The notes under the pieces: generated by a model
Databases searched by the model: none
Seen by the model: only the letters and a program-made list of their open reading frames with translations
What the model was told of the DNA's origin: nothing
From: Thermococcus siculi
Lineage (GTDB): Archaea > Methanobacteriota_B > Thermococci > Thermococcales > Thermococcaceae
Length of the DNA: 64,000 nt
Assembly: GCF_002214505.1 (NCBI RefSeq)
Contig: NZ_CP015103.1
Span: 1,178,001-1,242,000, forward strand
Reading direction: 5' to 3'
In this document: one piece after another, positions 10,990 through 14,043 of the stretch
Layout of the letters: every line of letters begins with the position of its first letter
Position numbering within the stretch: the stretch's first letter is position 1
Translations under genes and position numbers: made by a program

Positions 10990-11382
10990 ATGGCCATTTG
11001 GCAGGGAAGATCACTCAAGAAGCCTTCAGGCGGAAGGATTATCCTCGCTAGGAAGAAGAGGAAGAGGGAGCTTGGAAGGGAGCCGGCCTTCACCAGGGTC
11101 GGCGAGGACAGGGAAAAGAAGAAGATAATCAGGACCTACGGCGGCAACAGGAAGGTCCGCCTCATCGAGGCCCTCTACGCCAACGTCTTCGAGAACGGAA
11201 AGGGCAAGAAGGTCAAGATCCTCAACGTCGTTGAGAACCCGGCCAACAGGCAGTACGTCAGGAGGAACATCATCACCAAGGGAGCTATCATCGAGACCGA
11301 GGCCGGCAAGGCCATCGTCACCAGCAGGCCGGGCCAGGACGGAGTCGTCAACGCCGTTCTCATAAAGGAAGAGAGCGCCTGA
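10990..11382 (+). CDS. rps8e: 30S ribosomal protein S8e
   Basis: A 130-residue protein beginning [17 protein letters not shown], followed by the basic [15 protein letters not shown] stretch and ending with the beta-rich [20 protein letters not shown]. This is the archaeal/eukaryal S8e family of the small subunit. ATG at 10,990 has GAGGTGAGAAG before it; an upstream GTG in frame lies inside that site. T-rich sequence (cttttctccttt) after the stop is a likely terminator. Confidence 0.95.
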
Positions 11383-11432: not shown

Positions 11433-11513
11433 CTACCGTAAATCACCGTAAAGGGGAAAAGTTTACGGTAAAGGACTTCCAGCGTAAAATTTCTGGGCTT
11501 ACGTGAGTTAACG
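11433..11513. repeat. 81-bp direct repeat, copy 1 (downstream of the AlbA_2 gene)
   Basis: Aligns without gaps to 12,803-12,883 at about 75% identity by eye. It contains gtttacggtaaa, two copies of accgtaaa and cgtaaaat, so it is itself built of short CGTAAA units in both orientations. It overlaps the stop codon of the AlbA_2 gene. It may be a set of binding sites or an end of a mobile cassette. Confidence 0.7.
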
Positions 11514-12800
11514 GTTCAGGAGGTAGCGCCTCTGAGAGCCCCTCCCTTCGCTCCTCACGAGGCCCAATCCCTCAAGTTTCTTGAGCCTCTTAAGAAGGGT
11601 GGGCTTTGATATTCCAAGCTCTTCCGCGAGTTCTCCGCTTCTCCTGGGAGTTTCCAGAGCCGATAGAATTTTTCTGTCAAGTTCATCGAGCAGCCTGCCA
11701 GCCCATTTGTGGAAGGTTACCTCAAACCTGTTTGCCCTGGTTTTAAACTCAACACCGACGAGGCCGTGCTTCTTGCACTCCTCCCTTATCATCCTCAGGC
11801 CATAACCGTACTTCTCGATGTAGCCGGCATCGTAGAGGAGGGAGCACAGGTTGGGATTCCTCGGAACGTGTTCGGGGTCGTTTAGGTCGACTCCCGGCAT
11901 TAATCCCCCAGGGTTTCTTATCACAAGCCTGTCCGGGTAAACAAAAACCCTGACGTCCGCAGGGATGGCGTAGTTCCTGTGGGCAAAGGCATTTATCAGT
12001 GCTTCTCTAACCGCCCTTGGGGGATATTCCGGGAGCTTAACCCTCTTCGTCCCAACGACAACTTCGTATGTCCTGAACTCCCGTGTGAGAGTGTAGAACA
12101 TCTCATCAACCACGCGCCAGACCGGGCCTGAGAACTCGACGCTCTTTACCGCCTCGTCCCCCTGCATCCACACTATCCTACCCCCTGAGTGGGGTATAAA
12201 GTCGGTGGCATCCGTGAAGAAGAGAACTCCCGCGTTCGTCAGGCGCTCCCCCTTCACTGCCTTCGAACTCCTAAGGTATCTCATCCAGTCCTCTCTGGGT
12301 ATCTTTCTCCCCCTGGCCCTCTCAAGGGCGGAGAAGAACCACTCCACGTATTCATCTTTCATCTCTGAAAGGTCAACCAGTGGGAACTCGTCCCACGTTA
12401 CAGTCCCCATCTCGGCGGAGAGCATCAGGATTTCCTGGACTGAAAGGGGTCTGATGCTGGAGCCAATCCGTATGTAGGCGACCCCTCCAATGGAGCACAG
12501 CGTCTTTGACCTCGGAACCTCTACGACGAGAACGTCCTTATCCCCAACGCTGACCACACTCGTTTTCACGCTTATCGGTGGAGTTATGTTCTGAAGCGCC
12601 GAGGACAGGACTTCCTTTGCCTTCTTGGTGTCCACTCCAACGATTCTGCCCTCGTCCGAGACTCCAATAAGCAGGTAGCCACCCTCAGCGTTTGCCATGG
12701 CGCAGATTTCTCTCGCTATGTTAGGGGTTGCCTTGGCTTTAAACTCAACCCTCTCGTTCTCCCCCTCCCTGAGGAGTTCTATAAGGGATTCCACATTCAT
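11508..12800 (-). CDS. AlbA_2 (Schlafen-type) putative transcriptional regulator
   Basis: A 430-residue COG2865-type protein. Residues about 13-120 are an AlbA_2/Schlafen domain (EFKAKATPNIAREICAMANA, GGYLLIGVSDEG). The middle has VREALINAFAHRNY and IRNPGGL, the C-terminal ATPase-like domain of the family. Residues about 375-430 form a winged helix (SGELAEELGISKPTLLKRLK). It is predicted to bind DNA and may respond to a nucleotide. It is alone in its transcription unit, and 81-bp repeats with TTTACGGTAAA sites lie just before its start and over its stop, suggesting autoregulation or a mobile origin. Confidence 0.8.
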   Translation of the reverse strand: MNVESLIELLREGENERVEFKAKATPNIAREICAMANAEGGYLLIGVSDEGRIVGVDTKKAKEVLSSALQNITPPISVKTSVVSVGDKDVLVVEVPRSKTLCSIGGVAYIRIGSSIRPLSVQEILMLSAEMGTVTWDEFPLVDLSEMKDEYVEWFFSALERARGRKIPREDWMRYLRSSKAVKGERLTNAGVLFFTDATDFIPHSGGRIVWMQGDEAVKSVEFSGPVWRVVDEMFYTLTREFRTYEVVVGTKRVKLPEYPPRAVREALINAFAHRNYAIPADVRVFVYPDRLVIRNPGGLMPGVDLNDPEHVPRNPNLCSLLYDAGYIEKYGYGLRMIREECKKHGLVGVEFKTRANRFEVTFHKWAGRLLDELDRKILSALETPRRSGELAEELGISKPTLLKRLKKLEGLGLVRSEGRGSQRRYLLNR

Positions 12801-12802
12801 GT

Positions 12803-12883
12803 TTATCGTTAAATACCATAAACCTAAAAAGTTTACGGTAAACGACTTTCAGTGTAAAATTTTGGGGTTTACAATATTTAACG
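12803..12883. repeat. 81-bp direct repeat, copy 2 (promoter side of the AlbA_2 gene)
   Basis: Exactly 1,370 bases from copy 1 and in the same orientation. It begins three bases upstream of the ATG (12,800) and therefore covers the promoter of the gene. The core AAAAGTTTACGGTAAA is identical in both copies. Confidence 0.7.
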
Positions 12884-12902
12884 ACGAAGAAAGCAAAAGA
12901 GG

Positions 12903-13982
12903 TCAGAGCTCAAGCTCTTCCCGGTACTTCCTGAGTTCCTTTTCCATGATCCTCTTCGCCTGCTCCTCGACCATGGGCTTGACGAGTTTGATGACCCTCT
13001 CCTTCAGCTCGTCAAGACCCTCTCCGTTGAGCGCTGAAATCCTGAGCGGCTCGATTCCCTTGGAGCGGACGAACTCTTCAACGGCCTTAATCTTCTCCTC
13101 GTCGGCGATGTCCACCTTGTTGAGAACCACTATGAACGGGAACTCGCCGAACTCACGATGAATCTCCTCAAAGAGGTGGGTCTGTTCTTCTATAGGGTAG
13201 CCGCAGTATTCGCTGGGGTCGAAGATGTAGACGATGACCTTTCCGAGGTGTTTTAACGCGAGAATCGCCTGCCTCTCCACCTCGTTCCTCTCGCTGAGCG
13301 GCCTGTCGAGTAGGCCCGGGGTGTCGATGACCTGGTACTTGAGGTAGTGCTCCTCGAACTGGCCGACATTTATGCCCTTGGTTGTGAAGGGATAGCTGGC
13401 AACTTCGGGCTTGGCGTTGGTTAGTGCCCTGAGCAGGGTGCTCTTGCCAACGTTTGGATGGCCTGCTATGACTACAGTCGGAAGCTCAAGATCAACGACT
13501 GGAAGGTCTTTCAGCACGTTCCTGGCCTGGTTGAGGTACTCGAGGTCCTCAGCTATGTCCTTTATGACGTCCGCCGCCCTTCCATAGAAGCTCCTCCTGA
13601 GCCTTGCTATCTCGTCGGGATCGCGGGAATAGCGGATTTTCTCGACGTACCTCTGTTCCAGGTTCCTTATCGTCTTTATCGCCCAGTTGACCCTCGCGAG
13701 GGAGCGGTGAAACTGGTCTCTGTCTACGAGCGTATCGACCAGCTCCCTGTAGAACGCCGGTAGCTCCGAAACGCCCGGCGTCCTGTCCAAGAGCTTCCTG
13801 AGGTTGTCCCTGATTACGTTGGAGACGGTTCTTATCCTCAGCTCCTCCCTCTGCCTTGCCTTTGCCCTCGGGCCTCCCTTGGGCGTGAGTGCTGATGCCG
13901 CTTTCTCCGCCCTCCTGAAGGCCTTGTCGATGAGTTCGTCAGCGGTAAGAACCGTTGGCATCTTCTCAAAGGGGTTCTTCAT
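12903..13982 (-). CDS. NOG1-like GTP-binding protein
   Basis: A 359-residue GTPase of the OBG/NOG1 class, involved in large-subunit ribosome assembly in eukaryotes. An N-terminal helical domain (residues 1-160) precedes the G domain: G1 is GHPNVGKSTLL, G3 is DTPG in QVIDTPGLLDRPLS, G4 is NKVD, and a C-terminal charged helix closes the protein. ATG at 13,982 follows GAGGTGAGGG; GTG at 13,991 is part of that site and is rejected. Confidence 0.88.
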   Translation of the reverse strand: MKNPFEKMPTVLTADELIDKAFRRAEKAASALTPKGGPRAKARQREELRIRTVSNVIRDNLRKLLDRTPGVSELPAFYRELVDTLVDRDQFHRSLARVNWAIKTIRNLEQRYVEKIRYSRDPDEIARLRRSFYGRAADVIKDIAEDLEYLNQARNVLKDLPVVDLELPTVVIAGHPNVGKSTLLRALTNAKPEVASYPFTTKGINVGQFEEHYLKYQVIDTPGLLDRPLSERNEVERQAILALKHLGKVIVYIFDPSEYCGYPIEEQTHLFEEIHREFGEFPFIVVLNKVDIADEEKIKAVEEFVRSKGIEPLRISALNGEGLDELKERVIKLVKPMVEEQAKRIMEKELRKYREELEL

Positions 13983-14043
13983 CTCCCTCACCTCTCCTTT
14001 CTCTCGCGGTGTTCAGCTTTTCGGCTGGGTATTTAAAGGTTCG

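Follow-up and report, generated by a model that had tools for sequence, protein, structure and literature searches.

The AlbA_2 Locus

The window, i.e., the whole 64,000-nucleotide stretch of the Thermococcus siculi genome (G000) that was analyzed, carries on its minus strand, at 11508..12800, a gene for a 430-residue AlbA_2 regulator identified by ORF and Pfam analysis. The protein comprises an SLFN_AlbA_2 domain (residues 14-119; Pfam E-value 5.6e-24), a GHKL-like HATPase_c_4 domain (residues 282-363; 2.8e-19) and a C-terminal winged helix of the ArsR/AsnC-like kind (residues 370-430; HTH_20/HTH_5, 5.3e-09). This is the domain order of the COG2865-type AlbA_2/Schlafen regulators (PF04326, PF13749 and a winged helix-turn-helix; solved relative, 3LMM), with both core Pfam domains scoring far over the curated cut-offs, and the nearest solved chain is indeed 3lmm_A (E 1.9e-11). 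The protein is present as a single copy in this genome, the remaining matches spanning the winged helix only. On the basis of Pfam and the ortholog alignment, the winged helix (encoded at 11511..11693, minus strand) is the putative reader of the half-sites described below; its recognition helix is invariant in part only.

The gene lies between rps8e (10990..11382, plus strand), a convergent neighbor with orthologs in 89 of 94 genomes, and a co-directional gene for a NOG1-type GTPase (12903..13991, minus strand; ORF and Pfam). The first-pass annotation had hinted at a defense setting, which found no support: PADLOC returned partial domains only and no full-length match to a defense model, and the neighbors are housekeeping genes, so that a role in anti-phage defense was rejected.

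The Framing Repeats

Two repeats framing this gene had been proposed from inspection by eye (61 of 81 positions identical), and a repeat search agrees, with a direct pair at 11434-11513 and 12804-12883 (80 nucleotides, 76% ungapped identity, spacing 1370). As had also been claimed, one copy covers the promoter and the other the stop codon. The gene being on the minus strand, the copy over its promoter, called U here, is the one at 12.8 kb (12804..12884, minus strand; covariance model R1, E 4.5e-14); it combines a putative operator and the core promoter immediately before the ATG. The 11.4-kb copy, D (11434..11515, minus strand; covariance model E 1.0e-11), is an operator-like array that encodes the last codon and the stop (AAC CGT TAA). 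The core said to be common to both, AAAAGTTTACGGTAAA, does have the same letters in U and D. Their local alignment score of 43 compares with at most 13 in 200 shuffled controls, and it tops the start/stop flank pairs of the 61 ORFs in the window (runner-up 17, median 9). In the 2.03-Mb genome, mismatch-free copies of GTTTACNGTAAA occur at U and D only. The repeats are genuine and gene-specific.

Each copy consists of six ACCGTWAA half-sites in the order forward, forward, reverse, forward, reverse, reverse. This refines the description of the repeats as made of CGTAAA units: the unit is not a tandem CGTAAA run but this array with dyad symmetry. The half-site scan gave spacings of 10-17-9-17-10 in one sequence type and 9-17-9-17-9 in another, the array center being longer in the type found in the window. 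Within a genome, U and D invariably share their sequence type, and the identity between a gene's own U and D averages 0.859 vs. 0.680 for U-U comparisons between types.

The two copies differ in their promoter elements. U has a TATA-like TTTTTAGG inside the array, at about core-promoter distance; in the window it reads CTTTTTAGG (12823..12831, minus strand), some 23-31 nucleotides before the ATG, and it is retained in nearly all U copies. D keeps its half-sites, and its counterpart of the TATA-like box, CTTTTCCCC in the window (11453..11461, minus strand), is altered in many genomes (G000, G030, G041, G047, G050, and others). The stop codon TAA (11508..11510, minus strand) is built from a half-site of D, and the same CGT TAA belongs to D in the orthologs that have this repeat, whose proteins therefore end in arginine or another repeat-encoded residue. 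The C-termini of orthologs with U only differ from these in the alignment.

A BLAST search with the repeat alone overlooks most copies, and a sequence-only covariance model was therefore applied. Outside the window it found in this genome a third, diverged array (G000:C1:898931-899004; L172 3433-3505), located at the stop of an ATPase_2/DUF234 gene. The genome search for core clusters suggested in the first-pass annotation thus returned the exact core at U and D only, plus one diverged array elsewhere, and a wider regulon was rejected, the exact core sites being confined to the AlbA_2 gene and the sole extra array lying at the ATPase_2 stop codon. That array itself forms the stop codon of the ATPase_2/DUF234 gene, likewise in G001 and G068, where the ATPases are partly different.

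Distribution Among the Thermococcales

An ortholog of the dispensable AlbA_2 gene was found in 22 of 94 Thermococcales genomes. Both repeats are present in 13 of these 22 orthologs, their aligned parts being 77-100% identical (70 of 70 positions in G014), and U only in eight, mostly outside Thermococcus, while D is weak at best in an ortholog at a second site in G039. G066 is undecidable where its contig ends, and G063 is weak. The existence of relatives with unrepeated flanks had been named beforehand as evidence against the proposal; eight or nine orthologs are of this kind, and the pattern stands within Thermococcus. As these orthologs are mostly from other genera, D is taken to be a lineage-specific addition, and since it is missing or weak in them, the core function of the protein does not need it. 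In the assemblies of G001 (L141) and G055 (L140), the AlbA_2 gene is disrupted and both repeats are still present.

Most matches of the covariance model lie beside an AlbA_2 gene or at its empty site. A dispersed intergenic repeat or terminator unlinked to the gene would also be palindromic, might sit at convergent junctions as D does, and could explain orphan copies. That explanation can practically be dismissed in view of this distribution, the dyad half-sites, the position of U over the promoter, and the fact that each of three gene families has a sequence of its own (see below). Nevertheless, similar arrays occur near ATPase_2 genes or alone, and the site may therefore have other readers. 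The orphan arrays are found at unrelated sites with no adjoining AlbA_2 gene (L184 2909-2987 in G008, L175 3384-3455 in G073, and L182 3029-3097 in G071).

In genomes that have the gene, the conservation of D exceeds that of the gene's fourfold-degenerate sites, with means of 89.9 vs. 79.8, 80.5 vs. 75.2, and 77.5 vs. 57.5%. D surpasses them in 18 of 19 pairs, the exception being G000/G030 (84.5 vs. 84.9). The locus thus has matching symmetric sites at the promoter and at a distance, with selection on the second site. Where the gene is absent, solo copies have identities near those of NOG1 third positions, mostly a few points above (e.g., 79.1 vs. 75.5 and 71.9 vs. 70.1). Hence, D looks functional in the presence of the gene and relic-like in its absence, and solo copies appear to drift almost neutrally. 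Some solo pairs are better conserved than NOG1 third positions (80.7 vs. 63.8), and some solos may therefore be recent or used.

Empty Sites and Probable Lateral Exchange

The region after rps8e was compared in 57 genomes. It had been suggested that gene-less strains be checked for a single repeat, and 11 genomes without the gene there (G036, G044, G039, G071, G059, G048, G054, G019, G025, G067, and G056) retain exactly one array at the rps8e/NOG1 junction. Further solo cases are G064 and, in part, G053; in most other genomes without the gene, no array is present. Alignment with G016 shows that the solo sites of G039 and G044 join the left flank of U to the right flank of D, so that the empty site consists of one repeat and both outer flanks. 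In the NOG1 tree, G039 is sister to G016, and G044 falls inside the same clade of genomes with both repeats. Given this nesting, both solo sites descend from a state with two copies.

The history of the gene is decoupled from that of its neighbors. Between G000 and G030 the gene is 95.7% identical, vs. 86.2% for NOG1 and 88.5% for rps8e, and between G042 and G033 the values are 94.1, 84.3, and 92.1%. For G000 and G042 the order is reversed, with 70.7% for the gene vs. 83.4% for NOG1 and 92.3% for rps8e. Similarly, G047 groups with G050 and G055 in the gene tree (clade support 100/100; with G050, 97/93) and with G070 and G071 in the NOG1 tree (98/97). These discordances indicate that the cassette has been transferred laterally into the same site. 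A cassette had been one of two options offered in the first-pass annotation, and as an account of the history of the locus it is well supported, by the gene-less relatives with one repeat and by gene phylogeny and identities at odds with those of the flanking genes. A common plasmid or phage vehicle was rejected; only distant matches were obtained, with at most 32% identity and no archaeal organism among the matches listed.

It may be asked whether a static dual operator would suffice, with D selected purely for autoregulation, by looping or as a road-block against read-through from rps8e, and with solos as incidental deletions and no exchange. The conservation of D beyond fourfold sites is as expected from such an arrangement, as is its location at a convergent junction in three families (as read in G000). 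The discordance between the gene and its flanking genes, however, makes it quite improbable.

Two ATPase_2 Families With the Same Design

There are 16 ATPase_2 matches in the T. siculi genome, two of which show the same framing with other palindromes. The first of these, family 2 (354 residues; ATPase_2 and an MCM_C-like winged helix), is located at G000:C1:1788393 (L228 2567-3631) and has a 25-bp palindrome, CCCCCCACCAGTAACTGGTGGGGGG, directly before its start and right after its stop. The palindrome core CACCAGTAACTGGTG has 41 matches across 33 genomes, vs. one for a reversed control pattern, and in eight genomes it forms pairs about 1.09 kb apart. In G013, G014, G021, G031, G033, G044, and G054 the gene is missing and one palindrome is left. 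A TATA-like TTTTTAAG often precedes this lone palindrome, and G013 is a clean empty counterpart of the G017 site. At the family 2 site of G041 (L239) and G047 (L241), another ATPase_2 paralog (~42% identity) is found with its own palindrome, CATACAGTATG, beside a single CACCAGTAACTGGTG.

Family 3 (368 residues) is located at G000:C1:148244 (L206 1153-2259), with CTTACCNNNNGGTAAG palindromes at both ends. Its stop codon TAA lies within D in most Thermococcus carriers; the site is without the gene in G015 and G041, and U only is present in G008 and G092. Both families carry winged helices, and in G000 each of the three cassettes follows a co-directional gene and sits at a convergent junction. 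Relative to the AlbA_2 gene, the two families of archaeal ATPase_2 genes (PF01637) share the U/D framing and solo scars, and differ in their NTPase fold and palindromes. The one-gene arrangement thus looks as if it recurs with AlbA_2 and at least two unrelated ATPase_2 genes.

The recurrence bears on whether the locus goes back to a tandem duplication of operator and gene, with the second gene lost since. Such an event would yield a promoterless operator like D, and tandem AlbA_2 paralogs are present in G023 and G073. Nonetheless, the duplication would have had to stop exactly at the palindrome three times, once in each family, and D still matches U in every lineage, which leaves this origin hardly plausible.

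Proposed Mechanism and Relation to Known Systems

Our preferred interpretation, held with moderate confidence, is that of a one-gene cassette that regulates itself, is exchanged laterally, has its own putative operators at both ends and is lost via recombination between them. For this cassette, we infer binding, repression, a use of D in looping or as a road-block, and the recombination pathway as follows. The AlbA_2/GHKL/winged-helix protein would bind the six-half-site dyad array at U, probably via its C-terminal winged helix, and thereby shut off its own transcription. The same protein would probably also contact the matching array D at the stop codon; with both sites occupied, the gene (1.3 kb) could be drawn into a loop, or transcription that enters from the convergent rps8e could be blocked. 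Binding of both ends by the regulator, as had been envisaged earlier, agrees with how the half-sites are arrayed, with the selective conservation that D shows and with the winged helix at the C-terminus. U and D being direct repeats, their recombination would delete the gene precisely and leave one operator, which would then decay. Intact cassettes would be swapped among Thermococcus species at the same site, re-entry occurring by lateral exchange.

The main rival is an actively mobile single-gene element, in which the operator would serve as an attachment site, with site-specific excision and integration at solo operators, perhaps by a recombinase acting in trans. The units of three families are bounded by palindromes, clean empty sites exist (G013 vs. 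G017), solo arrays are found at several chromosomal sites, cassette swaps are seen, and other AlbA_2 paralogs also lie between direct repeats, there involving the start of a flippase-like gene. On the other hand, the unit contains no transposase among its Pfam domains and no integrase, a single gene lying between U and D; most orthologs remain at one locus; and where polarity can be read, it is that of loss. Homologous recombination via the flanks, together with deletion between the repeats, accounts for the data, and we consider active mobility rather unlikely.

The lac, gal, and lambda systems are examples of autoregulated repressors that use two operators and DNA looping. The cassette resembles them in having two separated sites, one over the promoter, its operator role being read here from sequence; unlike in those systems, the second putative operator is at the gene's own stop, and the direct repeats open a way to gene loss. 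A solo LTR is the scar of recombination between direct repeats, and the likeness is that two copies are found with the insert and one without it. In contrast to LTRs, however, the repeats described here are putative operators of one regulator gene, and genes for transposition are missing. Integron cassettes, pdif/Xer modules, and insertion sequences are small units of genes with recombination-prone sites at their ends. In architecture, the present unit differs from them in that it has no recombinase and that the palindrome differs from one gene family to the next. Compared with other COG2865-type regulators, the AlbA_2 gene is distinguished by its two operator-like arrays and the precise scars of its loss. 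The features of a dual operator and of solo-LTR scars are thus combined, but no transposase, no integrase and, around the unit, no terminal inverted repeat was found, U and D being direct repeats; the unit is therefore not classed as a transposon or integrative element. No description of this arrangement was found in the open-access literature, which is weak evidence of absence.

A broader proposal, tentative and on present evidence doubtful, is that of a class of archaeal one-gene mobile units, consisting of an NTPase or AlbA_2 protein with a C-terminal winged helix, whose operator doubles as a recombination site. Gain and loss would always leave either a gene between two repeats or a single repeat, and at least three gene families of Thermococcus, each having a distinct palindrome, would belong to this class. 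ATPase_2 genes and AlbA_2 regulators are common in archaea, and their function is obscure. The design common to the families described here, with the gene's own putative operator at both ends, the stop codon in or beside an operator, and a single-operator scar, predicts a target for the winged helix, points to former insertion sites through their sequence, and allows a test of whether regulator operators serve as recombination sites in archaea.

More distant AlbA_2 paralogs (L071-L074; ~30% identity) are framed by direct repeats that include the partial start of a downstream flippase-like gene, and short tandem repeats cover their stop codons.
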